Source: a virus
IMG/VR virus record: IMGVR_UViG_3300034272_001023
Location: 1-26,361 of that record
Direction: 5' to 3' (one strand)
DNA: 26,361 bases
The notes below the pieces were generated by a model that ran no database searches, was not told the DNA's origin, and saw only the letters and a program-made list of their open reading frames with translations. Numbering within the stretch: the first letter of the stretch is position 1; each line of letters opens with the position of its first letter. The position numbers and the translations under genes are program-made. Shown piece after piece: positions 411-24,223 of the stretch.

Positions 411-488
<78 letters not shown>

Positions 489-529: not shown

Positions 530-1984
530 TTATCTGCGGGCACGTGGTGTAGAGACGGTGGGAGTTTCTGGCGCTGGTTTTGACCGAGTTGGTTTTAGTC
601 CGGTTACTCCATGTGTTTTAGCGATTACTGCGCTAGGATCTACTTTTTGTAAAGTGGCTTTGGCTTTGCTTTTCCGAGCTCTTTCCTCTTTACCAAAAGT
701 AATCTTAGGTGCTACGCTGGGTGCATCAGTCCAATTATAAAGACCTGGATTTAATTCGAATTGAGCCCAATCTTTTTCTAATTGGGTTTTATCTTTGATA
801 TAGTTGTAAGTAAACGTAGGCTGATGTATAAAAAGAATACCGTCAAATCCTACACCTGTTTTCTTATCTACACTGGTGGCCATATAGTATTCATAGGTGA
901 GCATGAACCAACCTTTTCGAAATTCGTCGGGATTAAAACTGCCGTCCGATTGAATTGTATTCAAAACGTTGTTTCTCATCTCTGGCGTAGTCTTAGGATA
1001 GATGTGCTTAAGTGCTTCGTCGAACATTGCTTTCACTGATTTTTCACCAGGTTTAGCAACTTTCAATGCTGCACTTAATGCAGTAGTAGCCGCAGATCCA
1101 AAATGCAAAGGTTCGGAACTTAGGTCTACTCCTGTTGCATCCTGTAAGTAAGTCACTCCAGGTCTCTTAAGTAAACCAATCAGTTGCTTATTAAACTTTG
1201 GCCAATAAGTAGCACCATCTCCATAAGTGCCCTTTCCGCCGAATCCTTTAAGACGAGCACCCTGAGCTTTTACTTCTATCTCTCTGCCCAATACATTAAG
1301 ATCACCTGGGCTTAATTTATTAATCCCCGATCCTAAGATAAGAAAAAATGCTTCTCCATCACCTGTGTTAACTGCTGTAGTGCTAGGACTGACTTTAAAA
1401 TTAATAAGTTTAGTTTTAATATTATCTAAAACTACACTCTTGTAATTAATAAGTTTGTCGATACTACCACTTCCTGGTTTTAATAGTTCTTTAGTTTTAA
1501 TAACTCCAGCGCCTTCTAATTGAGCTGCCAAACTAACTTTATCTTCTAGTGTACCAGGTGCATTAATAAACAAATTTAAAATTCTGTCTTGATCATCCTG
1601 TTTAACAATATCTTTGGAAATGCACATAGGAATAATGTGATCCGCTAACATTGCCCTATTATAGAACGCCCAAACTTTATCTGCATCTTCGGGTTTAGTT
1701 CTCTTTAATAATTCATAGATTTGCAAGTCTGCACTTATAATATTAGACTGCTTGCCTGCTTCTTCTATGGGCGGTTCTGGATATTCGTTACTAGGCGGGG
1801 GAGTAGGATCTAATAGACTGACCAAGAAATGTTTTAGTTTTCCCAAAACGCTTTGGGGAACTTCCCCTTGCTTGATATCTTTTGCTATTTCTTTAATTTT
1901 GGGATCTTCTAGGCTAGAAGGTGCAGCAGTTAATTCTTCTGCTTCAGAAATAAGATTTATTAGTTTTCGTAGGTCGTTGGTCAT
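530..1984 (-). CDS. Putative head-packaged protein with PD-(D/E)XK nuclease-like core
   Basis: A long frame that can start at 1990 or, as I prefer, at the ATG at 1984 (484 residues). The late promoter just upstream would start RNA near 1986, so only the second ATG would be on the message. The N-terminus reads MTNDLRKLINLISE followed by AEE; LISE-A resembles the T4 capsid-targeting peptide and its prohead-protease cut after (L/I)XE. Around residues 213-241 (numbered from the first Met) E213 in a hydrophobic helix, D230 in SPGD and E239-V-K241 in GREIEVK fit the E...D...EXK arrangement of the PD-(D/E)XK nuclease fold. The C-terminal third is basic and proline/serine-rich. I do not recognise a named family; packaging and nuclease activity are inferences. 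Confidence 0.85.
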   Translation of the reverse strand: MTNDLRKLINLISEAEELTAAPSSLEDPKIKEIAKDIKQGEVPQSVLGKLKHFLVSLLDPTPPPSNEYPEPPIEEAGKQSNIISADLQIYELLKRTKPEDADKVWAFYNRAMLADHIIPMCISKDIVKQDDQDRILNLFINAPGTLEDKVSLAAQLEGAGVIKTKELLKPGSGSIDKLINYKSVVLDNIKTKLINFKVSPSTTAVNTGDGEAFFLILGSGINKLSPGDLNVLGREIEVKAQGARLKGFGGKGTYGDGATYWPKFNKQLIGLLKRPGVTYLQDATGVDLSSEPLHFGSAATTALSAALKVAKPGEKSVKAMFDEALKHIYPKTTPEMRNNVLNTIQSDGSFNPDEFRKGWFMLTYEYYMATSVDKKTGVGFDGILFIHQPTFTYNYIKDKTQLEKDWAQFELNPGLYNWTDAPSVAPKITFGKEERARKSKAKATLQKVDPSAVIAKTHGVTGLKPTRSKPAPETPTVSTPRARR

Positions 1985-1991
1985 GATCATA

Positions 1992-2411: not shown

Positions 2412-3176
2412 TTACCGTCGTTCTATATCTTCTTCGATACAGTTTTCGCCGTATTGAATTTCAATCAACTTCAGTGGCTTATCTGTTTCATTGCACAGCA
2501 TATGCCATTCATTATTGTCGATAAATGTACTTTGATGCACTTTTAAACTACATTTTAAATCGTGATCTGTACTACTAGCGTCTAAAGTGTACACAGTAGC
2601 TTCGCCTTGGGCTACAAACCAAAATTCTGATCTTTTTTCGTGCCGTTGCATACTTAAACAAGTTTTAGGTGCAACTGTAAGCTCTTTAAGTTTGGTGCCC
2701 GGGCCGCAAGTGTGCAAAATTCTATAATAGCCCCAAGTACGAGATGTTTTAGGCGCTTTCCATTCCTCAAGAATCCAACTTGAAGAATTTAATTTGTTTT
2801 CGCCGCCTACACCAAATACAAATTCTAAATTATTGTCCTGGCAGGCCATTTCTGGAATATTATCTTTGGTTCTGTCTCCGCCATTGGCAAAAATAATTTT
2901 AGCATCCGGATATACTGATCTTACTCTTAAAATAGCATCTATACTAGATCCGTCGTCATCTTCAAATTCGTAGACAAAATCCACTACCTTTAAATTATCG
3001 ATGATAGCAGCTCGCTCTGCCCATGGCATAAATGCCCGACCTTTTTTACGCTGCAACCAAGCATCGCTGTTAACACCAACAACTAAAATGTCACCCAATG
3101 ATTTGGCAGCTTTAAAATATTCAATGTGCCCAGAATGAACTGGGTCAAATCCACCTGTTACTAATACAATATTCAT
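2412..3176 (-). CDS. Nucleotidyltransferase fused to a mannose-6-phosphate isomerase type II-like cupin
   Basis: 254 residues in two domains. Residues 1-145 form a cytidylyltransferase-like Rossmann domain with GGFDPVHSGH (HxGH at 14-17), of the kind seen in HldE/RfaE C-terminal and glycerol-phosphate cytidylyltransferase domains. Residues 148-254 resemble the C-terminal cupin of ManC/AlgA-type enzymes: WGYYRILH, SMQRHEKRSEFW, NEWHML and LIEIQYGENCIEEDI follow that family closely. The likely role is making or altering an activated sugar or polyol phosphate, for example for surface glycans; the substrate cannot be read from the sequence. It is the last gene of the gp32-uvsX-uvsY operon, starting eight bases after uvsY, with only a weak ribosome site. 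The fusion order is unusual. Confidence 0.88.
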   Translation of the reverse strand: MNIVLVTGGFDPVHSGHIEYFKAAKSLGDILVVGVNSDAWLQRKKGRAFMPWAERAAIIDNLKVVDFVYEFEDDDGSSIDAILRVRSVYPDAKIIFANGGDRTKDNIPEMACQDNNLEFVFGVGGENKLNSSSWILEEWKAPKTSRTWGYYRILHTCGPGTKLKELTVAPKTCLSMQRHEKRSEFWFVAQGEATVYTLDASSTDHDLKCSLKVHQSTFIDNNEWHMLCNETDKPLKLIEIQYGENCIEEDIERR

Positions 3177-3184
3177 ATTGTTAC

Positions 3185-3637
3185 TTATAAAGTGATATCT
3201 TCCATACCCGCGGTTCTGAGTCTGCTGACATGTCCTAACATAAAGTTTTTACTTTCCAGGCCTTTCATCAGACCCAACCACTTATTCCGAACTAACGCAA
3301 CTTCATTGATGATTGTCTCAAAATCAATGACTTCATCTTCTCCGTCTACGTATTTTTCAGCATCCCTGCTAGTTAATGCTCTTGGATAATTTTCAAGATA
3401 TTTCTGAAAATGTTTTTTTCTAATTTTTCTTAATTGCAGATTAAGATACTGTAGTACCGCTTCGATTTCTTGTAACTGATTAAATCTCTGTTCTGTAATG
3501 CCAGGCAACGATGCAACATTCTTTTCTAAGTTACCTTTAATATTGCACTCAAATTTAGCCTGTATCAACTCATCCTCATAATAATTTATGAAGGCGGGAA
3601 TATTACCCATGTCGGATACTACTTTATTATACCACAT
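3185..3637 (-). CDS. uvsY: UvsY-like recombination mediator
   Basis: 150 residues, near the 137 of T4 UvsY. The C-terminal part NKWLGLMKGLESKNFMLGHVSRLRTAG lines up by eye with the T4 UvsY end, where a Trp-containing helix is followed by a 'short helix - I.H....R' finish. The middle is basic and helical (LQLRKIRKKHFQKYLE), fitting single-strand DNA and gp32 contact. In T4, UvsY loads UvsX recombinase on gp32-covered DNA. Here it lies in the same operon as both partners, which supports the call more than sequence alone. Its ATG overlaps the stop of the small acidic protein gene (TAATG), implying coupling. Confidence 0.78.
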   Translation of the reverse strand: MWYNKVVSDMGNIPAFINYYEDELIQAKFECNIKGNLEKNVASLPGITEQRFNQLQEIEAVLQYLNLQLRKIRKKHFQKYLENYPRALTSRDAEKYVDGEDEVIDFETIINEVALVRNKWLGLMKGLESKNFMLGHVSRLRTAGMEDITL

Positions 3638-4797: not shown

Positions 4798-5853
4798 TTA
4801 TTCTTCTGCTGTGGTAGTAACTAATCTATGCGGATTGGCAACATAGTCTTGCATAACTTTGTCCAAATTACCATCGTCGTTACGCTCCCACGCTTTACGG
4901 AATTGTTTAATCACTGTACCGTCTACTAGCGTATATTTAAGACTGTTGCCTTCTTTTTGCAATAAACTTTTTCCCTCAAACATGTCAACAAGTCCGCTAT
5001 AAGGATTCATGCCAGTTTCGTAGGGTATCTTAATCTGTACACTTTCAAAAGGTTTAGCATAACGTGTTTTCATGATCTTACAACCTGCACGAATACCTTT
5101 GACCTGCGTAATCTTGTTGCCGTCTTCGTCTTCTTTCAACTTCATCTTCTTCATTGCAACAACAATAGAACTCGCATAGATAAAGCCTTGTCCGCCACTG
5201 ATCTTGTCATCTGGATCAAACATGTCTTGGCTTGCGTATGTGTGATTGGTTGCAACTAATCCAATATTCAAATCACCAAATTGGTTAACACAATTACGTA
5301 CCAGTGAAGTTAATGCCTTGGGCTTTCGGCCCATGTCGCCTTTCATATCACCTGCTTCAAATTGATTAACATCAGTTGGCGTTAACAGCATACCTAAGCT
5401 ATCCATTACAAATAAAACTTTTGGCCTTTCTGCTTCCGCTAAAGTTTTGTATTCTTTTACAAATTCGCTGATCATCTTAGCTACATCGTCGATCATAGCC
5501 ATATTAAGTTTTAGCAACTTATCGTCGGCAGTATCTACGCCAAGAGCATGTAGCCACTTTTCGTCGAGTGCATTTTCTGTATCAATCAAGATAGGAAAAA
5601 TTCCTTGTTGTTGTGCATTCTTAATTAAATTGCCGGAACAAATAAAACTTTTTCCGGCACCAGATTCGCCAGCAAATACAGTAACTTTGCCCAGGGGAAT
5701 CCCTTTATGAAAATCTCCGCTTACAAGATAGTTCAATGCATAGTTACCTGTACTGATCCATGTGTCCGGGTCTCTGAATCCAACGCTGATACCATCAATA
5801 CTTTTAGTAATATTTTTTCTAAATTTACTTACATCAAAAGGTTTTGTTGCCAT
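4798..5853 (-). CDS. uvsX: UvsX recombinase (RecA family)
   Basis: 351 residues, close to the 391 of T4 UvsX. Walker A is GESGAGKS at 62-69; Walker B is the strand VLFVMDSLGML near 145-155. NHTYASQDMFDPDDKISGGQGFIYASS fits the DNA-binding loop 2 region of phage RecA proteins, and TRYAKPFE is typical of UvsX. It carries out strand exchange for recombination-dependent replication and repair with gp32 and UvsY, both in this operon. AAGGAATAACT before the ATG is a good ribosome site. It starts two bases after the upstream gene's stop. Confidence 0.96.
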   Translation of the reverse strand: MATKPFDVSKFRKNITKSIDGISVGFRDPDTWISTGNYALNYLVSGDFHKGIPLGKVTVFAGESGAGKSFICSGNLIKNAQQQGIFPILIDTENALDEKWLHALGVDTADDKLLKLNMAMIDDVAKMISEFVKEYKTLAEAERPKVLFVMDSLGMLLTPTDVNQFEAGDMKGDMGRKPKALTSLVRNCVNQFGDLNIGLVATNHTYASQDMFDPDDKISGGQGFIYASSIVVAMKKMKLKEDEDGNKITQVKGIRAGCKIMKTRYAKPFESVQIKIPYETGMNPYSGLVDMFEGKSLLQKEGNSLKYTLVDGTVIKQFRKAWERNDDGNLDKVMQDYVANPHRLVTTTAEE

Positions 5854-5855
5854 AG

Positions 5856-6674
5856 TTATTCCTTAATTTTTATTTCTTTAATAAATTTAAACTTCTGTAT
5901 TTTACAGAAGCTATCTTTTAAATCCAATACTCTTCCCAGAGGTATTTTTCCATGTCCTAATTTTTTATCATTAGGGTCAATATTATTATTTTTTAAAAAG
6001 TCTACGTAATCCAAATTTGACAAAGGATCGTAATCGTAAAAAAATAGTGTAATGTCACCACTATAATAGTGAAGATTTTTAAATCCTTTATAATCGACGC
6101 TTAATCCATCTTTATACAAATCGTAAAAATCTTTACCTAGTTCAGCATAATTTACAAACATTACCCCGGGGTCTAATTTAAATTCACAATAATTATAATC
6201 AGACTCAATCATTGATATTCGCCTATATTGATTTTTATTAAATCTAACAGTGAATCTATTTAATTGATCTTTTTGTTTTTCAATTCGATGAACGTAAAAA
6301 TTTAATTCTCGTATTGCTTGTTTAAGTTCATCTGACGCAATAGAAAATAAACGGGTGGGCTTACCGAACTCTCCACTTAGCTGTTCGAATTTTGTATGTA
6401 GGTAATTAAAATATTCCTGCGATTGAGTCTCGAGGTCGGATCTTAACTCAATAAAATTTTTTAAATACCGATTTATCACGACACAAGCATTATATAATTT
6501 TTCACCTGCCTCACGAAGAGATAGTAAGCCCGAAAAAGATTCTTCTTGATCTATTTCACAGTTGTCTAAGCACCATTGAAATTCTTCAGTCCATTTACGG
6601 ACAAATTCATTATCAAAGAGCAGAATATCAAAAGACACCTCTCCCGAGGTGCCTAGAACAACCGTTAGTTTCAT
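5856..6674 (-). CDS. Unknown 272-residue protein between gp32 and uvsX
   Basis: The start codon overlaps the gp32 stop (TAATG), so translation is probably coupled to gp32. N-terminal residues MKLTVVLGTSGEVSFDILLFDNEFVRKW look like a beta-rich opening; the middle (70-150) is helical with a charged, possibly coiled-coil stretch (RIEKQKDQLNRFTVRFNKNQYRR), and the C-terminal half is rich in Tyr, Phe and Asp. No nucleotide-binding or catalytic motif is visible. In T4 the gp32 neighbour is gp59, the helicase loader, but I see no convincing similarity. Operon position suggests a replication or recombination accessory role. Confidence 0.8.
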   Translation of the reverse strand: MKLTVVLGTSGEVSFDILLFDNEFVRKWTEEFQWCLDNCEIDQEESFSGLLSLREAGEKLYNACVVINRYLKNFIELRSDLETQSQEYFNYLHTKFEQLSGEFGKPTRLFSIASDELKQAIRELNFYVHRIEKQKDQLNRFTVRFNKNQYRRISMIESDYNYCEFKLDPGVMFVNYAELGKDFYDLYKDGLSVDYKGFKNLHYYSGDITLFFYDYDPLSNLDYVDFLKNNNIDPNDKKLGHGKIPLGRVLDLKDSFCKIQKFKFIKEIKIKE

Positions 6675-7669
6675 TACTTTTGACGATTGCGAATCATTGC
6701 CAGAATGTCTTCGGCACGTTGACTAGCAGGTTTGGCTGCTGCCACCGGTGCAGTAACTTCTGGCTCATCTACTTCAAATGGAGGTTCGTCGTGTGTTGCC
6801 GCAGGTGCTGGACGGGATACTACAACAGGTTTCGAAACTGGAGTAGATTCGTCGTCAGACTGTTTGTTGCCAGCAGTACTAGCCATTCCAACTGGTTTGT
6901 AATAAGCACTCCACTTATCAGCATCAAATGGTTCACCATTCACACTGGCTTCAAACATTTCTTTGATAATTTTTAGTTCTGCGTCAGATGGCTTTTTAGG
7001 CAAAAAGTCATTCAGATTGTACAATCCAAATTTTTCAATGGCTTGCAGTTCTGTAGAAGTCAGTGCCGATTCTTTACGTGCCCAAGTGCTAGTATTGTAG
7101 TCAGCATATCCGCCTTTACTGGTTTTCTTAATACTGAAATCCAGACCAGCTTCGTAGTCAGTTGGCAAGTTTTCCAACTCAGGATCCATCAAAGCATTTT
7201 TAATGAGATTAAAAATCTGAGGACTGATAATGAATCGACGAATCGGATTGTCTGTGGGTTTGTCATCAGTGAGAGGATTTTCGTGTACAAATCCTTGCAT
7301 GATATAACTGCGTTTTTTCCAGTACTTACGACCCATTTCTTCAAGACTCTTGTCCTTGAACCAAGTACGAACTTCTGCAAGGATAGGACATGCTTCGCCC
7401 CACATTTCAACGCAAGGTACTTGTACAAAAGTAGGTTTGCTATCAACTTGCCCTTTTACACCAGCAAAAGGAAGTTTAATCATAAGTCGTTCGACCCAGA
7501 AAAAATCATTTTTTGTATTTGCGTCTGGAAGGAAACGTACACGAGCTGTAGTACCTTCTGGGATATTCCAATGGGCATAAATGCCATTGTCACCGCCTGA
7601 TTGGCCGCCTTGTCCCTTGTTTTCTTGTGCTTGAAGTTTTGCACGAATTTCTGCTAAAGATGTTGCCAT
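6674..7669 (-). CDS. gp32: gp32 single-stranded DNA-binding protein
   Basis: 331 residues (T4: 301). The N-terminal LAEIRAKLQAQ resembles the basic cooperativity segment. The core has RVRFLPDANTKNDFFWVERLMIKLPFAG, WKKRSYIMQGFV and NPIRRFIISPQIFNLIKNALMD, the typical OB-fold pattern. The C-terminal 60 residues are Pro/Ala/Glu-rich and acidic, like the partner-binding tail, ending RAEDILAMIRNRQK. Only two cysteines (C86, C94) sit in the zinc region, where T4 has three Cys and one His, so the zinc site appears degenerate. It is first in the recombination operon with a strong ribosome site (AGGAG) and a complex promoter region. Coats single-stranded DNA in replication and recombination. Confidence 0.95.
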   Translation of the reverse strand: MATSLAEIRAKLQAQENKGQGGQSGGDNGIYAHWNIPEGTTARVRFLPDANTKNDFFWVERLMIKLPFAGVKGQVDSKPTFVQVPCVEMWGEACPILAEVRTWFKDKSLEEMGRKYWKKRSYIMQGFVHENPLTDDKPTDNPIRRFIISPQIFNLIKNALMDPELENLPTDYEAGLDFSIKKTSKGGYADYNTSTWARKESALTSTELQAIEKFGLYNLNDFLPKKPSDAELKIIKEMFEASVNGEPFDADKWSAYYKPVGMASTAGNKQSDDESTPVSKPVVVSRPAPAATHDEPPFEVDEPEVTAPVAAAKPASQRAEDILAMIRNRQK

Positions 7670-7824: not shown

Positions 7825-9279
7825 TTATTTGGTAATGCCGGCTAATTGTTTGAGAAGATTAGTTCCCAACTCTTCCATTACACCATTACTGTAACTGCCA
7901 ATTTCTCTATCCGCTGTGGTACTACCGTATTTTCCGTATCCGTATCCGTATACGCCCATGCGGGGAAATTTGAAATCTGGATTCCAAGCTGCGATTATAT
8001 CTTTTGCTCGTTCGACTTCTTCTTTGCTTTCGAAGTAATAAACACTGTTTTGGAATTTGAATTCAAATCCGTTATTTTTCAATAAATTATCTAAATTAGA
8101 ATCAATGATATCGTTATCAAATTGATCTTCATCATCCCGTGGATTGCTTAATTGGTTTGCAAATGGGCTGGGATTCTCATCTTCTTCCTCGATGTCCTGG
8201 CCCTTATGAGCATGTTTTTTATTTTGAACATCGATGGGATTAGTTTCTAGTGTTTCCAACATTTCGTTGGCCCACGACTCAAATTCTTCTCCGACACGAT
8301 TTTTATATTTGCTATAAGCTTTATACACAACTGGTAGAGCATCCATAAGTCTATCATCGAAAATTTTTCTTGTGAAACGTTCCCTCAGTGAGTTCAAGTC
8401 AATTTCATCTTCGTCAATAATTTCAGGTTGCCATAATGCTTTGTATTGGTCGTATCCACGTTGGCTGCGAAGTGAATGCAAGTCTCTGTGCAATCTACCA
8501 TAATGATCTATTGCACTGTTGACCATTTGTGTAGTTTCTATGTCTTCAAAAGTTCGGCCGCGCATATTTCTTGTAAATGTTTTAAGTGCATTCATTTCAC
8601 TTAAAATTTTATTAATATGTTTTCCGAAATCATCATTGAGTTGGCCGCCGTTTTTGACATGTCTTGCCAAGGCACGTGCGCCATTTATTGTAGTGCCTTC
8701 GGGACAACGATAACGTTCTCCCAAGGAATTTTCGATGTAGAACGATTCGATATTTCGACTTCTTGCACCAGGAATAGTTTCATCTACAATAGGTTTACTA
8801 TGACGAACAATTAGCTTTACGTTTTCAAGTTTCTGGTAACTACTTCTTCTTGTTCCGTAAAGTTTACTTTCTGTTACCTTAATATCGTCTTTATCTAATA
8901 TTTCTGCATTTTTATTTGCGTGTTTCAGATCTCTAAGATTAAGGCCGCTTTTTGCAATATCCCTAACATCAAAGCTTAACATATTTCTTTTTGCAAACAA
9001 TCTCAATGACTTTAAAAAGTTATACCATACTGCTTTTTCTTCTGGTGACATTTCACTGTCGATATCTTTGTCGAAGAATACTTTTAAGTTGTTTGAATCA
9101 ACCAAACTTATAGTAATATTGCCTAAATTTCTGTCGTTTATGACATAATCAAAATTAAAAAATCTAGCCTGTGTAGGATCTAACGTGGCTTTGGCATTTT
9201 CGTCGCCAATGTTTACCGCGTCGAATCGACTGCGAATTTTATCAAATAAGTTTTCAGCTACTTTTTCAATTTCTATCAT
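7825..9279 (-). CDS. Conserved unknown T4-like phage late protein, 484 residues
   Basis: Starts MIEIEKVAENLFDKIRSRFDAVN. Recognisable features are FFNFDYVINDRNLGNITISL (41-60), WYNFLKSLRLFAKRNMLSFDVRDI (85-108), and ESKLYGTRRSSYQKL followed by RHSKPIVDE and GARALARHVKNGG. I recall this arrangement from other marine T4-like myoviruses, always without a function. The C-terminal third is acidic and asparagine-rich, then aromatic and glycine-rich (GVYGYGYGKYGS), and ends LLKQLAGITK, a motif also seen in two neighbouring head-block proteins. A late box ends eight bases before the ATG, suggesting a leaderless late message and hence a structural or assembly role. The promoter overlaps the end of gp17. 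Confidence 0.88.
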   Translation of the reverse strand: MIEIEKVAENLFDKIRSRFDAVNIGDENAKATLDPTQARFFNFDYVINDRNLGNITISLVDSNNLKVFFDKDIDSEMSPEEKAVWYNFLKSLRLFAKRNMLSFDVRDIAKSGLNLRDLKHANKNAEILDKDDIKVTESKLYGTRRSSYQKLENVKLIVRHSKPIVDETIPGARSRNIESFYIENSLGERYRCPEGTTINGARALARHVKNGGQLNDDFGKHINKILSEMNALKTFTRNMRGRTFEDIETTQMVNSAIDHYGRLHRDLHSLRSQRGYDQYKALWQPEIIDEDEIDLNSLRERFTRKIFDDRLMDALPVVYKAYSKYKNRVGEEFESWANEMLETLETNPIDVQNKKHAHKGQDIEEEDENPSPFANQLSNPRDDEDQFDNDIIDSNLDNLLKNNGFEFKFQNSVYYFESKEEVERAKDIIAAWNPDFKFPRMGVYGYGYGKYGSTTADREIGSYSNGVMEELGTNLLKQLAGITK

Positions 9280-9286
9280 AGTATTA

Positions 9287-9293
9287 TATTTAT
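9287..9293 (-). promoter_or_regulatory. Late promoter box for the 484-residue protein at 7825-9279
   Basis: GATAAATA on the minus strand, overlapping the gp17 stop codon. Expected RNA start is 9281, two bases before the ATG at 9279. Confidence 0.55.
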
Positions 9294-10858
9294 CAAATCA
9301 TTATGAAGGGCATGGGCATCAAAATTTCATCGCTGGAATCTTTGAGCTTTTCATCTAAGTTGGGATCAAACTCTCGCAAGAACATAGACATTCGAACAGC
9401 TAACAACATAGACATTACTAAATCGTCTGTTTCCCCTATTTTGGCTGCATATCCGCTGCCTGCTGCTATAAAAGTTTTTAACTCACTTACTAATGCTTTA
9501 CTTGCAATGTGCAATTTTCGAGTTTCTATTAGATTTTTAAATTTAGAACAAGCAGATAATTTTGATTTATTAGTTGTTGTGAATCCTTTTCTATAAGTTC
9601 TATTCGATCCTACTTTTTTTGGCTCACTTAAAAATATACCTTTTATATTTTCTTCCCCGTATTCGCTAATTGCTACCAGTGCTGCTTCACCGAGGGTATT
9701 GTTTTCTACACTGTAATAAACATCATTATTTGATTTTGTAGTTTCCGCTAATGTCTTTGTTATCTCAGATAATATCTTTACCTGTGTTTGCACTGATGTT
9801 TTATTATGCTGCCATTCTGCTATTTGTTTCATGCTGGGCATTTCTAATACTTGGATAGCAGCAGGGTCTCCTCCTGTACCTAAACTAGGATCTAGCGCAA
9901 CTATGTAAACATTTCCTTGTTCTGGTTTTTTATACCAGCGAACCTGTCCTTGTTTAATCAACGGATCTATTCCCGACATTTCAGTTAAAAAGATAGGGTT
10001 AATCAGTGTTTCGTCGTGAATAATAAATTCGCATTCCATTTCTCGGCGAAAACGTTCTTCTCCTAATTGAGCACGCATTTCTGCTGCCCATTTTTCATCC
10101 CTGTCAGGATGCTCTTGCCATTTACTTCTATATGCCCTAAATCCGTTAACACCTAACTCTGTTTCATTGCCATATTCGTCAATGCGTTTATTTGCTTGAC
10201 GCCAAATTTGTGCAAACTGATCTTCATCACTGTTTGGTGTGCTGGTTATAATGCACTTACCGCCTGTTGCTAGTGTTGGACTAATCGACGTCCAGAATTC
10301 GCTGGCAATACTGGGTCGCACAAACGCAAACTCATCGCAATACAATAAGGATATACTCATACCACGACCAGTATTTTCTGTTGTGGTAGCACTTACTATT
10401 CGACTACCGTTGTCAAAATCTATGCTGCCCTTATTATAACTAGTTACACCTGCTCGAATATAATCCGGAACACTTTCGTATGCATATCGGATACGCTGCA
10501 TAATTTCCTGAGATCCAGTATATTTGTGAGCTGCAACAAGAACAGTGCTGTCAGGCACAAACATAGCATACCATAGCAGATATCCCGCGGCTGTTGTTGA
10601 CTTGCCCGTCTGTCGAGGCATCAATGATATTGAATATCTGTAATTATGATACGTTTCTACTAGTCTAGATTGATACTCAAATGGTTGATATCGTAATCTT
10701 CCTTTGGTAGGATGCTGAATATAAAAATAGTTTTCTAAAAAATATTGAGGACCATTTATCGGATCTGCACATTTAATGACCTCATGAATCTGTTCCTCAG
10801 TAAACGACTGTTTAACATTTGGTTTTTTAACGAGAACAGATTCTAGTGGTTTAGACAT
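9293..10858 (-). CDS. gp17: Terminase large subunit, DNA-packaging motor
   Basis: 521 residues (T4 gp17: 610). ATPase domain: MPRQTGKST (80-88) is Walker A, LLYCDEF (171-177) Walker B with the catalytic acid, IITSTPN (203-209) the coupling motif. Nuclease domain: VALDPSLGTGGDP with D323, SVENN with E385, and ETDDLVMS with D478/D479 give the RNase H-like metal site. It cuts concatemeric DNA and pumps it into the prohead through the portal. The shorter length reflects a missing N-terminal extension. It lies downstream of its own late box and is separated from the likely small subunit (16056-16541) by about 5 kb, unlike T4. All catalytic residues are present. Confidence 0.97.
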   Translation of the reverse strand: MSKPLESVLVKKPNVKQSFTEEQIHEVIKCADPINGPQYFLENYFYIQHPTKGRLRYQPFEYQSRLVETYHNYRYSISLMPRQTGKSTTAAGYLLWYAMFVPDSTVLVAAHKYTGSQEIMQRIRYAYESVPDYIRAGVTSYNKGSIDFDNGSRIVSATTTENTGRGMSISLLYCDEFAFVRPSIASEFWTSISPTLATGGKCIITSTPNSDEDQFAQIWRQANKRIDEYGNETELGVNGFRAYRSKWQEHPDRDEKWAAEMRAQLGEERFRREMECEFIIHDETLINPIFLTEMSGIDPLIKQGQVRWYKKPEQGNVYIVALDPSLGTGGDPAAIQVLEMPSMKQIAEWQHNKTSVQTQVKILSEITKTLAETTKSNNDVYYSVENNTLGEAALVAISEYGEENIKGIFLSEPKKVGSNRTYRKGFTTTNKSKLSACSKFKNLIETRKLHIASKALVSELKTFIAAGSGYAAKIGETDDLVMSMLLAVRMSMFLREFDPNLDEKLKDSSDEILMPMPFIMI

Positions 10859-10923: not shown

Positions 10924-11448
10924 ATGTCTGACGTACTGCTGTTGAACAGTGATTACAATCCAATTTCAGTTTTACCTCTAAGTGTTATCGGTTGGCAACA
11001 TGCTGTCAAACTATATTTCTTGGATCGCATCACTGTGGTTGAAGAATATGAAAACTGGGTAATTCGTAGTGAAAAATTCAGCATGAATGTGCCCTGTGTT
11101 GCAGTTACCAAAGAATACTTCCACTTTAAAAAGTCAGCGAAGTTTTCTCGCAGTAACATGTTCTTGCGAGATATGTACCAATGCCAGTACTGTGGTGAAG
11201 TTTTCGAGCATAAAGAACTTACTCTGGATCACGTAATCCCACGTGCTCAAGGAGGTAAGACTACCTGGGAAAACAGTGTAACAGCCTGTAAAAATTGTAA
11301 TCACAAAAAAGGACACAAGCTGATTAAACCACTACGCACACCATATAAGCCGGATCACTTCCAATTAATTAAAAAATGGAAGGAACGGTCTGTACAAGTG
11401 CGACACGAGAGTTGGTATCAATATTTGGGCATTAAGCCAAAGTCTTAG
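10924..11448 (+). CDS. HNH endonuclease
   Basis: 174 residues on the strand opposite to its neighbours. The HNH site is intact: C87-x2-C90, D102-H103 in LDHVIPRAQGG, N117 in WENSVTACKNC, C122-x2-C125 and H127. The N-terminal 85 residues (VLLLNSDYNPISVLPLSVIGWQHAVKLYF) match the usual domain before HNH in a widespread bacterial and phage group. It cuts DNA, metal-dependently. It may be a free-standing homing-type nuclease, a packaging helper (HNH proteins next to terminases do this in some phages), or a host-DNA nuclease. The host-type promoter suggests early expression, which favours a role other than packaging. Its stop overlaps the convergent 69-residue gene. Confidence 0.93.
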   Translation: MSDVLLLNSDYNPISVLPLSVIGWQHAVKLYFLDRITVVEEYENWVIRSEKFSMNVPCVAVTKEYFHFKKSAKFSRSNMFLRDMYQCQYCGEVFEHKELTLDHVIPRAQGGKTTWENSVTACKNCNHKKGHKLIKPLRTPYKPDHFQLIKKWKERSVQVRHESWYQYLGIKPKS

Positions 11449-11654
11449 ATAGGTTTTTCGCCAGTAAGATAAGGCTTACTGAACCAAAGTTTGAACCAAG
11501 CATCAGTGCCCGGTTTGATGTCGTTTTTACGCATCAGCTGGGCTTTTTCATTTCCGGTAACGCTGATGTTACTGCCAGAGTAACCTTGATATGCAGTCCA
11601 ATTTGGTCTGTTAGTTATGCCGGCTAACAGTTTTAATTCTTGAAGCGGATCCAT
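11445..11654 (-). CDS. Small protein with LAGI motif, 69 residues, last of the head-protein block
   Basis: Starts MDPLQELKLLAGITNRPNW; the ELKLLAGI segment resembles LLKQLAGI at the end of the 484-residue late protein (7825-9279) and MLRIAGI/MLKLAGM in the 771-residue protein. The second half, GTDAWFKLWFSKPYLTGEKP, is aromatic and looks conserved. Its ATG overlaps the stop of the upstream gene (TAATG) and its end overlaps the convergent HNH gene by three bases. No function is known to me; position suggests a head component. Confidence 0.75.
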   Translation of the reverse strand: MDPLQELKLLAGITNRPNWTAYQGYSGSNISVTGNEKAQLMRKNDIKPGTDAWFKLWFSKPYLTGEKPI

Positions 11655-12037
11655 TATACACCAAATTTATTTTTCTTTGGTTTAGATACAGGGCTTACTT
11701 TGTTAGTGCTTTCTAGTTCTCGACTTTTCAAATCGCCATTGTTTAAATCTTGGTAATGACTGCCCACTGCATCAAACGCATGTACTAACATCCTTTGTTC
11801 TTCTGGGGTATACGGAAAAGCTAAATTATTTCTGCCTGCCCAAGATTCTGAATCAACTGTGGGTGCCAGTGGGTCGATTCCGTCGGCTGCGGCCACAGCC
11901 ATCATAACACGATTTAACTCATATACTCTGTCAGCAAACTTCTCATCTCGAAATTTATCGAGACCCACTGTTGCTTGTTGGAGTCGCGAAGGAAGTTTTC
12001 CCTCTTTGTCTTCTAAGATTATATCTTTTATTTTCAT
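11654..12037 (-). CDS. Conserved unknown protein with capsid-targeting-like N-terminus, 127 residues
   Basis: Begins MKIKDIILE followed by DKEGK; ILE-D fits the T4 prohead-protease rule of cutting after (L/I)XE, and the short hydrophobic/basic leader resembles the T4 capsid-targeting peptide. The body, FADRVYELNRVMMAVAAADGIDP and SESWAGRNNLAFPYTPEEQRML, looks highly conserved and I recall similar proteins in other T4-like phages without a function. The C-terminus is basic (SKPKKNKFGV), compatible with DNA contact. The gene starts immediately after the stop of the 342-residue gene. Confidence 0.82.
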   Translation of the reverse strand: MKIKDIILEDKEGKLPSRLQQATVGLDKFRDEKFADRVYELNRVMMAVAAADGIDPLAPTVDSESWAGRNNLAFPYTPEEQRMLVHAFDAVGSHYQDLNNGDLKSRELESTNKVSPVSKPKKNKFGV

Positions 12038-13066
12038 TTACCAAGCCCTGCAAGACCAATAACGTGCTTTCCATCTCGGCCCTGGGTTAGCGCAGTTATG
12101 TCTGGCTCTAAAGCTCTTACGGCGTTTAGGATTAGATTTTTTAATTTTCATCTTTTTATCGCCAAAGTTTACCTTAACGACATTCCCTTTCGGACCGCGA
12201 ACATATACTTTAGATTTTTTAACATCGCCTTGCATGGGCTTACCCAACGACACTTCACGACCCTGATATTTTGCCTCATTATAAACTTGATCAGGGTCAT
12301 CGGTTAAGTATTCTTCTGCCAATTGATCAGCAATTATATCAATAATTTGTTCAAAGTCATCATCCGGGTGTAGTCTAAAATCTATCGAAGCATTATCGTA
12401 CATATCTTGCAATTTTTCCGATACATATGCTTCTTCTGCACCTTGGGGATTAGTTAACACTTGATAAATGTCTTTATCTCCTGATGCTAGATCTCTGAAA
12501 ATCATATCTACTTCGGCCATTCTACTTTCTTCGATGTCAGTTTTATCATCAGCAGGATTTTTTGTTAAAAGTATTTTTCCCTGTAATTCTGGTCGATTTT
12601 TTATAATAGCTAAAGCGTAATTATTGGCTCCGTTCTTCCAATCAAAAACTTTAGGCTGGCCTTTTTGCGAATAAATTTTTCCATCAATCTTAATGTACCA
12701 AGGCCCGCGATCTCTATCCATTTGTTGTTGGCGAAGTTTGCGTTCAAAGTCGGGATCATCTTCGTGGCCTAGCTCATGTTGAAGTTCTTGACGTTTAAAT
12801 TCACGTTTGCTCAGATCCATTTGGCGTTGTTGATCTCTTTCATAGTCCATGGGATTATAATAATTTGCCTCATTTAAATTAACTGATTCAAATAATGCTC
12901 CACTAACATTTAATAGTGCCATAGCTTTTTCATCAGCTTCTACAATGACGCCATCTGGCATGAAACCAACAATACCAGTTTCAATTACTAAATTGCCTAA
13001 CTCAATATCAAAACTATCTCCTAGTTTAATAATATTTTGTTCGATGATGACATCACGTATTTTCAT
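12038..13066 (-). CDS. Putative internal head protein with basic Cys/His C-terminus, 342 residues
   Basis: Starts MKIRDVIIE followed by QNI, again a capsid-targeting-like leader with an (I/L)XE end. Residues 65-120 are charged and glutamine-rich (DYERDQQRQMDLSKREFKRQELQ), probably coiled coil. Residues 122-170 (PWYIKIDGKIYSQKGQPKVFDW) form a small beta-rich domain. Residues 180-260 are acidic. The last 55 residues are very basic, with KRRKSFRARHNC and ARYWSCRAW; H323, C325 and C339 could bind metal. I recall this ending in structural proteins of marine T4-like phages. It overlaps the 771-residue gene by four bases (ATGA) with AAGG upstream. Confidence 0.85.
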   Translation of the reverse strand: MKIRDVIIEQNIIKLGDSFDIELGNLVIETGIVGFMPDGVIVEADEKAMALLNVSGALFESVNLNEANYYNPMDYERDQQRQMDLSKREFKRQELQHELGHEDDPDFERKLRQQQMDRDRGPWYIKIDGKIYSQKGQPKVFDWKNGANNYALAIIKNRPELQGKILLTKNPADDKTDIEESRMAEVDMIFRDLASGDKDIYQVLTNPQGAEEAYVSEKLQDMYDNASIDFRLHPDDDFEQIIDIIADQLAEEYLTDDPDQVYNEAKYQGREVSLGKPMQGDVKKSKVYVRGPKGNVVKVNFGDKKMKIKKSNPKRRKSFRARHNCANPGPRWKARYWSCRAW

Positions 13067-15380: not shown

Positions 15381-16013
15381 TTATTTTCCGTTTCCTGCTT
15401 TCATACCACGTGGGTTAATTATTTTATTTTTGTGTGTACCGATTGGACTTGCGCTGCCTTGCGGCAATTCGTTGGTTGTTTTTGCTACAGGTGTTTTGCC
15501 TCCAGCAGTTTCGGGATATTGGTATTTTCTAGTTTCTTCTAATTCTTTAATTAAATTAGGTATACGTGCATCACCTACTAAAGCTTCCCCATCTTTGCCG
15601 GGGCGCTCTCTTTCCATGTTATCTTGTAATAACACAGATTCTCCTGGTTTACCGCCAATGTTACTTTGCTCTAACCCTTCTTTGGCAGCTTCATACGGAC
15701 TATTTTTAGGAGTAACTTTAATACAAGATAAATTGATTCCTGCACGTTCTGCAATTAATACTTTGACTTGTTCGTCATTACAAGGATAGTGAAAACTTGC
15801 ATCCATGATATGAATTTCAACAGGTCCCATATTAGGAAATTCTGGATTTTCTTGAATTGGCAAACGCTTAGGTTTGGTGATAGAATCTAATTTATATGCC
15901 TCTAAAACAGTTTTAATTTTTCCTATCAGATCGTCTGGAAGTTCGCAGGCCAATCTGATTCTGAAATCAAACGTTTTATGACTTTCTGTGAGATAAGCTT
16001 TAAACGATTTCAT
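15381..16013 (-). CDS. Putative internal head protein with T4-like capsid-targeting peptide, 210 residues
   Basis: The frame opens at 16052, but the promoter elements lie between 16024 and 16052, so I choose the ATG at 16013, preceded by GGGA. The protein then begins MKSFKAYLTE followed by SHKTF, strikingly like the T4 internal-protein leader MKTYQEFIAE-A. Residues 15-110 form a compact domain (FDFRIRLACELPDDLIGKIKTVLEAY, then PVEIHIMDASFHYPC), and the last 100 are Gly/Pro/Lys-rich and probably disordered, ending INPRGMKAGNGK. No catalytic motif is seen. It is the first gene of the head block behind the small terminase. Confidence 0.85.
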   Translation of the reverse strand: MKSFKAYLTESHKTFDFRIRLACELPDDLIGKIKTVLEAYKLDSITKPKRLPIQENPEFPNMGPVEIHIMDASFHYPCNDEQVKVLIAERAGINLSCIKVTPKNSPYEAAKEGLEQSNIGGKPGESVLLQDNMERERPGKDGEALVGDARIPNLIKELEETRKYQYPETAGGKTPVAKTTNELPQGSASPIGTHKNKIINPRGMKAGNGK

Positions 16014-16023
16014 TTTAATTCCC

Positions 16024-16052
16024 ATTATACGATATTTATTAAAATTTGGCAA
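16024..16052 (-). promoter_or_regulatory. Overlapping sigma-70-type and late promoters before the head-protein block
   Basis: TTGCCA (16047-16052), 17-base spacer, TATAAT (16024-16029). Inside the spacer is the late box AATAAATA (ATAAATA at 16033-16039). Late RNA would start near 16027 with a 14-base leader including GGGA; sigma-70 RNA near 16017 would be almost leaderless. Confidence 0.6.
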
Positions 16053-16544: not shown

Positions 16545-16560
16545 AACGGTATTTACCGTT
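16545..16560. repeat. Inverted repeat at the gp4 stop / gp16 start
   Basis: AACGGT and ACCGTT (6 bp) enclose four bases; on the minus strand the gp4 stop TAA is in the loop side and the gp16 ATG follows three bases after the repeat. On the plus strand it is followed by six T, so it could weakly end antisense transcription. Confidence 0.45.
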
Positions 16561-16987
16561 TTTTACTACCAGCAAAAATATCGGTTTCGTTGACTACTCT
16601 GAATGTTAACCCTTGTGCGGCACAGAATTTTCTTGCGGCGTCCCATTTATACATATTAAGAGCCACTGCTGCTTTATCTCTTATACTCTTTGCAGCTTCC
16701 ATTGTTGTTTCCTTAGTTGGCTTAACTTCAATTACTTCACCATGTCTTTTACCGTTTTTATCAACATAAATGATTAAAAAATCAGGAACATAAATTGTAT
16801 TTTTTCCAGTAAATGGATTTTTATAATTAACATGGATAGCTTCGCTGGCCCATTGTACTACTGCGGGATTGTTATCACAAAATCTCATAAAAGCAAATTC
16901 CCAACTTGACCTATATGTTGGCTCTCGCTTTCCAACATATTTGGTAGGATTTTGTACTGTGTATTTTCCCTGACTGTACTTGCTCAT
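16553..16987 (-). CDS. gp4: Head completion protein, TnsA-like nuclease fold
   Basis: 144 residues, close to T4 gp4. YRSSWEFAFMRFCDNNPAVVQWASE, VPDFLI and EVIEVKP are the family signatures. E30, D69 and E87-V-K89 form a PD-(D/E)XK (TnsA-type) active-site pattern. In T4 the protein acts after packaging, finishing the head before tail joining. It follows the 136-residue gene with a four-base ATGA overlap, and is followed by gp16. Confidence 0.92.
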   Translation of the reverse strand: MSKYSQGKYTVQNPTKYVGKREPTYRSSWEFAFMRFCDNNPAVVQWASEAIHVNYKNPFTGKNTIYVPDFLIIYVDKNGKRHGEVIEVKPTKETTMEAAKSIRDKAAVALNMYKWDAARKFCAAQGLTFRVVNETDIFAGSKKR

Positions 16988-23845: not shown

Positions 23846-23868
23846 CCTTTGCAAAGGTTTCATAAATA
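23846..23868 (+). promoter_or_regulatory. Palindrome and late box before the plus-strand zinc protein
   Basis: CCTTTGCAAAGG (23846-23857) is a perfect 12-base palindrome. CATAAATA follows (box ATAAATA at 23862-23868), putting the RNA start at about 23873-23874, at the start codon. The TTGCAA plus CATAAATA layout (six bases apart) repeats the one at 2025-2043. Confidence 0.45.
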
Positions 23869-23872
23869 TATG

Positions 23873-24223
23873 ATGCAAAGACCTTTATGTGTAGTCTGTA
23901 ATTCTAATCCAGCCGCAATAAATTATATAAAAGAAGGACAACATCATTATAGGAAACTATGCGATAGTTGTATTCGTAAAGGCAAAAAGTTGAAGCCGAT
24001 ACCCCCAAATTGGTTTAAGTCAGGGTATCGAAAAAAATCTGTGTGCGAAAAATGTGGGTATCGAGGTAAGTACCCAGAAAAACAAATGACAGTTTTTCAC
24101 ATAGACGGCAATCTTAAAAATACTTCTACGCTAAATTTAAAAACCTTATGTTTAAATTGTAGGGTAGAAGTGGCGGCCAGCAGGTTGCCTTGGAAGGAAA
24201 GTCCCCTTACACCAGATTTTTAA
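23873..24223 (+). CDS. Small four-CxxC zinc protein, HNH-like
   Basis: 116 residues from the ATG at 23873 (another ATG is directly before it). Four Cys pairs: C6-C9, C30-C33, C58-C61, C93-C96, enough for two zinc sites. VFHIDGNLKN followed by NLKTLCLNC resembles the HNH core 'HHIDGN..N...NL..LC..C', but the terminal His is Arg here (CLNCR), so activity is doubtful. I recall very similar proteins starting MQRP in many marine T4-like phages. It lies on the opposite strand between gp18 and dNMP kinase, and its 3' end overlaps the kinase gene end by 17 bases. It could be a DNA-binding or nuclease-related accessory protein. Confidence 0.82.
   Translation: MQRPLCVVCNSNPAAINYIKEGQHHYRKLCDSCIRKGKKLKPIPPNWFKSGYRKKSVCEKCGYRGKYPEKQMTVFHIDGNLKNTSTLNLKTLCLNCRVEVAASRLPWKESPLTPDF

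Follow-up and report, generated by a model that had tools for sequence, protein, structure and literature searches.

What use would a T4-like phage have for a protein that begins like a packaged head protein and continues like a DNA-cutting enzyme? The question is raised by a gene near the first nucleotide of a viral DNA stretch of 26,361 nucleotides (IMG/VR record IMGVR_UViG_3300034272_001023, positions 1 to 26,361), called the window here. An earlier reading, made from the sequence alone, had placed the protein at 530-1984 without naming a strand. It corresponds to a genuine ORF of the minus strand, the plus strand across the region being full of stops. The frame runs from 530 to 1990 including its stop codon (530-532) and offers two starts, ATG 1990 for a protein of 486 amino acids and ATG 1984 for one of 484. 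Residues are numbered here on the 484-residue form, so that the numbers of the sequence-only reading, taken from the 486-residue form, are two higher. The protein has one confident nuclease region behind a set of helices and no significant Pfam domain; its parts are as follows.

530-1990, minus strand: leader-tagged nuclease ORF (the ORF itself and its 93-100% identical copies in other viral contigs).
1943-1984, minus strand: leader resembling the T4 capsid targeting sequence, residues 1-14, MTNDLRKLINLISE (enriched among slot proteins; also found in front of unrelated C-terminal domains).
1406-1732, minus strand: helical region, residues 85-193, lying between the linker and the nuclease core (AlphaFold, pLDDT mostly >90).
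695-1402, minus strand: predicted PD-(D/E)XK nuclease domain, residues 195-430 (invariant residues, model, weak HinP1I match).
1352-1354, minus strand: E211, formerly E213, in helix 211-217 (invariant in 46 sequences; DSSP helix).
1301-1303, minus strand: D228, formerly D230, opening strand 228-231 (invariance and model).
1274-1276, minus strand: E237, formerly E239, in strand 234-239 (invariance and model).
1268-1270, minus strand: K239, formerly K241, in strand 234-239 (invariance and model).
533-676, minus strand: low-confidence C-terminal tail, residues 437-484, ending in PRARR (pLDDT <50; RxRR-type ends enriched).

Searches with the single protein sequence gave nothing useful in Pfam, PHROG, NCBIfam or the PDB, and tblastn against named phages gave no match. 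Viral contigs yielded the near-identical copies and one relative at 56%, and more distant relatives were recovered by core-based scans; the contigs analysed are mostly metagenomic fragments. Scans of bacterial and archaeal genomes with alignments A6 (no conserved stretch) and A5 (no relative) revealed no cellular homologue at that sensitivity.

Iterated searching led to a large family that includes gp078 of Flavobacterium phage immuto. In an alignment of 46 homologues (14-100% identity), the only invariant columns are G208, E211, G227, D228, E237 and K239, and the same residues are kept in five further distant members from the window's own lineage (nine-sequence alignment). The four residues that the sequence-only reading had picked out as a catalytic set are thus all invariant, joined by two glycines. 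An AlphaFold model computed with the 46-homologue alignment (pLDDT 76.7, pTM 0.68) is mostly above pLDDT 90 at residues 85-430 and mostly below 60 in the leader, the linker and the tail; a model from only seven near-identical sequences (pLDDT 40) was discarded. The retained model predicts a confident alpha-beta domain with the order helix 211-217, strands 221-223, 228-231 and 234-239, helix 257-284, in which E211 lies on the helix, D228 starts one strand and E237-x-K239 occupies the adjacent strand. PD-(D/E)XK enzymes place their catalytic residues on a helix and adjacent strands in a similar arrangement. The nuclease assignment made from the letters alone is therefore borne out both by catalytic residues that no homologue among the 46 lacks and by a predicted helix-strand-strand-strand core in which they are rightly placed.

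The model was also compared with known structures. Foldseek against the PDB returned nothing at E<=0.001, and the only domain-spanning PDB match in VIA-align is HinP1I (1ynm and 2fkc), aligned to model residues 171-432 and 207-434 over 139-151 residues at ~10% identity, a weak match whose Z of 2.8 and 2.7 falls within the range of unrelated helical matches. BPSL2520, reached at E 0.084 only when the profile of the window protein's type (type A, see below) was run against the PDB, was not used. The nuclease call is founded on conservation and topology and not on the HinP1I match, and on these grounds of sequence and model we consider the window protein very probably a nuclease.

The N-terminus of the 484-residue form reads MTNDLRKLINLISE/AEE, the slash marking a possible prohead-protease cut after E14. 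In T4, a hydrophobic-x-Glu cleavage site closes a short N-terminal leader. The corresponding form M..[LIVFM]xE begins 36 of the 39 ORFs with nuclease homology that occupy the genomic slot described below, compared with 66 of the 407 remaining ORFs of >=200 aa from those loci. This statistic is partly circular, a leader-like N-terminus having been one ground for choosing 27 of the 39 as seeds; the fair figure is that of the other 12, found by core or C-terminal homology alone, every one of which carries the leader (12/12). So short a pattern also begins ~16% of other ORFs, and three G-type proteins miss its strict form. At the other end, RxRR-type C-termini are found in 18 of 33 slot proteins and in 26 of 418 others. 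A 231-kb contig from the window's lineage encodes a gp21-type prohead protease (Peptidase_S77, PF03420, E 5.8e-27), the 26-kb window itself being a fragment, and Peptidase_S77 of gp21 type also occurs in four contigs of the immuto lineage. With this enrichment in slot proteins, the capsid-targeting-like leader claimed by the sequence-only reading stands as a sequence feature. In T4, the capsid targeting sequence (CTS) can package a foreign staphylococcal nuclease, and the T-even internal proteins are highly diverse, only their CTS being conserved (PMC3012670). By analogy and context, we regard head packaging of the nuclease as likely because: (i) it carries the tag, (ii) the slot of the immuto lineage has a head-gene setting, (iii) a protease gene is encoded and (iv) T4 offers a precedent.

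What could not be seen from the gene itself is that it occupies a hypervariable slot, where related phages carry other tagged nuclease types. In the window, the slot is flanked by a syntenic block:

2412-3176, minus strand: nucleotidyltransferase-like gene, flanking the slot upstream (residues 1-114 match PHROG 7878; synteny).
3185-3637, minus strand: uvsY, anchor for sampling the slot in other phages (phrog_231).
4798-5853, minus strand: uvsX, lineage marker (phrog_97; closest cultured relatives).
6674-7669, minus strand: single-strand DNA-binding protein (phrog_1192).
7825-9279, minus strand: virion structural protein (phrog_13484).
9293-10858, minus strand: terminase large subunit (phrog_36964).

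Window-lineage loci with enough flank share the order terL, structural protein, ssb, uvsX, uvsY, (nucleotidyltransferase), nuclease. When the slot was sampled in other phages by anchoring on uvsY, it was found to hold leader-bearing proteins with different C-terminal domains; many of the loci so sampled stop short of the slot or carry other genes there. Judged by UvsX, the nearest named phages are jumbo phages, among them Atu_ph07, CBB and GAP32 (~67%), and in four regions of the closest cultured jumbo phages the syntenic block is kept with no annotated or recognisable nuclease of this kind in that place.

Several other genes of the window may be recorded here. Leader-like starts occur in a 342-aa protein (12038-13066, minus strand; MKIRDVIIEQ), which has an odd C-terminus, RRKSFRARHNCANPGPRWKARYWSCRAW, and matches phrog_7595 (unknown function), and in two ORFs of the same strand that perhaps encode further internal head proteins (11654-12037, MKIKDIILED; 15381-16052, MKSFKAYLTES at an internal ATG). 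Two HNH-like ORFs, recognised by eye from CxxC..H..H, lie on the plus strand (10924-11448 and 23849-24223), opposite to the late genes, and one of them stands beside the terminase. A tRNA-Met gene (411-488, minus strand) overlaps the end of a small ORF of the same strand (194-436).

A comparable slot exists in the lineage of immuto. Its neighbours are the gp079 and gp077 families, and it is found two to three genes upstream of the terminase and near the portal and the prohead protease, within a head-gene cluster in which the flanking gene products begin with similar leaders. The constant part of the slot proteins is here an N-terminal 'KGYPD' module (MSVVDKIVxEWAFRCKKGYPDMNNPDDMKILKEIYSEYG), to which one of at least five domain types is joined; it is unlike the T4-like leader, and a targeting role for it is our guess. 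Immuto gp078 itself (YP_010114605.1, annotated as hypothetical) has an A-type nuclease with GKGE..GDV..EIK. Both lineages of T4-like phages thus have one locus at which a constant N-terminal tag is joined to one of ~8 sequence-distinct domains, a count that rests on motifs, the fold being predicted for type A alone. All types show E..D..(E/S)xK with 9-19 residues from D to E/S, the acid of the (E/D)xK motif being Ser in several types other than the window's. Types A and E are shared by the two lineages, with a different tag in each (hhalign E 8.5e-15 and 5.6e-14), and types F and G are weakly related (77%); a kinship of F with B, which look alike by eye, received no hhalign support.

Two further observations concern loci of this kind. 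A variant KGYPD module (MVNIDALLSEWAYRCKKGYPD) precedes mostly A-type nucleases at L092, L096, L099-L102 and L105-L113, where the sampled flank shows no immuto synteny. The gp077 family (L036-L104, the gene after the nuclease) has a constant start, MADNFNLRxFLTENKLTKNA, after which its members diverge strongly in length (~250-610 aa), so that here too a variable body stands behind a constant leader.

How readily are the types exchanged? Among immuto-lineage pairs whose terminases are >=97% identical, 122 of 235 differ in nuclease type, near-copies included in the count. Over 34 dereplicated loci, the similarity of the nucleases shows no relation to that of the terminases (rho -0.01); that of gp077 tracks it (rho 0.38). 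In the A-type tree, the two lineages form separate groups (97/96), which does not bear out the suspicion of a recent exchange of the A-type domain between them, so that swapping is, as far as shown, a matter within the immuto lineage and extends across lineages by type only. Exchange between phages with near-identical terminases points to an arms race, and type exchange among such close relatives is better explained by a conflict with host or rival DNA than by a housekeeping role.

The most serious competitor of a packaged weapon is a nuclease that acts in the same infected cell that produces it and is never packaged, its N-terminal pattern having another role and the slot being a recombination-prone place. 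The window gene does stand next to uvsY and uvsX, and leaderless relatives exist in settings of DNA metabolism: E-type relatives among DNA replication genes in KVP40-like Vibrio phages (L203, 4923-5768; L204, 3947-4846) and an H-type relative directly before a DNA methyltransferase gene in the cyanophage Synechococcus phage ACG-2014f (L205, 4716-6952), which suggests a phage restriction-modification pair. Relatives in such settings indicate that the domains can serve as intracellular enzymes. The same comparison also supports the leader as an added tag, the domains carrying it in the slot and lacking it elsewhere; in addition, the tag is kept on unrelated domains, and the immuto-lineage slot belongs to a head-gene cluster whose products flanking the nuclease have similar leaders. 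We therefore leave the purely intracellular role a minor, if real, chance.

A nuclease that does enter the head could instead be a housekeeping enzyme, trimming or releasing packaged DNA in the manner of the T4 gp4 head-completion nuclease. The position of the slot near the terminase in immuto's lineage would suit such a role, and a REase-fold head nuclease required for packaging is found in T4-like phages (PMC7824862). The window, however, already has a gp4 homologue (16553-16987, minus strand; phrog_218, E 3e-40), cultured relatives with the syntenic block have no such gene at the slot, and a housekeeping enzyme should track the terminase, whereas the domain is exchanged between terminase-identical phages; we find this role improbable. 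Even less probable is a selfish, free-standing endonuclease for which the slot is the homing site. It would account for allelic exchange at one site (the sampled immuto-lineage loci being filled slots by construction) and would have company in the two HNH-like ORFs of the window and in an intron endonuclease reported to mediate interference between co-infecting phages (PMC11620839), but it is the catalytic domain that is exchanged here, the N-terminal tag staying in place, and homing would not call for a tag of this sort. That the fold merely persists in a non-catalytic structural or DNA-binding head protein, as the Ser in several other slot types might hint, is scarcely credible for the window type, whose only invariants are the catalytic set and two glycines, a pattern hard to explain without catalysis.

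A nuclease delivered by its own phage raises the matter of self-protection. No immunity or methylase gene was found beside the nuclease in the window or in the immuto-lineage slot. In that slot, the next gene belongs to the gp077 family in nearly all loci, usually 28-52 nt away and whatever the nuclease type; it was rejected as an immunity gene, its similarity following the terminase, as given above, and not the nuclease type (rho 0.05). The small ORF at 194-436 was considered for that role and set aside, not being found beside near-identical nucleases in three other loci (L002, L003 and L005). The DNA-methylase families PF01555 and PF02086 are absent from seven large contigs. With no immunity gene found, the candidates are that the nuclease stays latent in the head, that its target sites are rare or that the phage DNA carries modified bases. 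The last is a possible shield in the immuto lineage, since immuto encodes a DNA guanine transglycosylase of DpdA type along with related genes, and relatives of DpdA are present in all four large contigs of its lineage tested, two of them weakly similar (29% identity); no DpdA homologue was found in the window-lineage contig searched.

Returning to the packaged nuclease, we narrowly favour the proposal that a T4-like phage carries a PD-(D/E)XK endonuclease as head-packaged, injected cargo with an exchangeable warhead; the active-site conservation, the modelled core, the tag, the slot and the swapping of types among close relatives are observed, and its packaging, cleavage, injection, target and sparing of the phage's own DNA are inferred. 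The N-terminal leader would direct the nuclease into the prohead core, and the phage's gp21-like protease would probably cut it off after E14. The mature nuclease would then be packed with the genome, enter the next cell with the DNA and cut whatever DNA is unprotected there, be it the chromosome of the host or the DNA of plasmids and rival phages. The slot would keep the tag constant while its catalytic part is swapped between phages, which is what shifting targets or counter-defences would lead one to expect. The presence of the same tag on quite different nucleases at the same place suggests that related phages probably package and inject interchangeable DNA-cutters, which to our knowledge has not been shown before; a literature search largely outside subscription journals found no report of an injected PD-(D/E)XK nuclease or of a leader-tagged slot with type exchange. 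On the wider generalization, that at least two T4-like lineages reserve a slot for an injected, head-targeted nuclease of ~8 exchangeable PD-(D/E)XK-like types, with the tag kept and without a cognate immunity gene, our judgement is evenly balanced.

If the proposal is true, certain virions bring a DNA-cutting enzyme into the cell along with the genome, and infection could open with an attack on the DNA of the host or of rivals. T4-style tagged internal proteins would then extend from defence against host nucleases to attack with a nuclease of the phage's own. The reading would also assign a function to proteins that mostly have no database match or are annotated as unknown, and it raises direct questions: which DNA does each type spare, and does the type predict the outcome of a co-infection?

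The proposal may be set beside known systems. The window protein resembles the type II restriction endonuclease HinP1I in its predicted PD-(D/E)XK fold (the weak match at Z 2.7-2.8), but unlike type II restriction-modification it has no cognate methyltransferase beside it, either in the window or in the immuto-lineage slot. The T4 gp4-like nuclease is likewise of REase-fold kind, gp4 being a head protein with a TnsA-like nuclease domain, but the window has the two as separate genes of separate families. Immuto gp078 shares the A-type nuclease with the window protein, the KGYPD module replacing the T4-like leader. Attack on DNA by phage-encoded nucleases has been suggested in other settings: for the Mom-coupled nucleases of jumbo phages, the proposed targets are host or superinfecting phage DNA (PMC7824862), and polyvalent proteins are predicted to be packaged and injected, an attack on host or rival DNA having been proposed for their ParB-like DNases (PMC5512222). 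Polyvalent proteins are multidomain and their ParB DNase is not displaced by other DNases (PMC5512222), whereas in the slot a single nuclease domain is replaced by other types and the window protein does not gather several effector domains in one long polypeptide. The pairing of a constant delivery end with an exchangeable, often nuclease, toxic end recalls polymorphic toxin systems (PMC3482391), the slot tag being the presumed delivery end. It differs from them in that delivery, if it occurs, would be by the virion, and in that no adjacent immunity gene was found, gp077 in the immuto lineage not covarying with the nuclease. Finally, the slot proteins are like IPI-IPIII and Alt of T4 in that a short leader ending in hydrophobic-x-Glu stands before diverse payloads as a conserved tag and a gp21-type protease is encoded; but IPI protects phage DNA from a host nuclease and Alt modifies host proteins, whereas the payload of the slot is itself a predicted nuclease.
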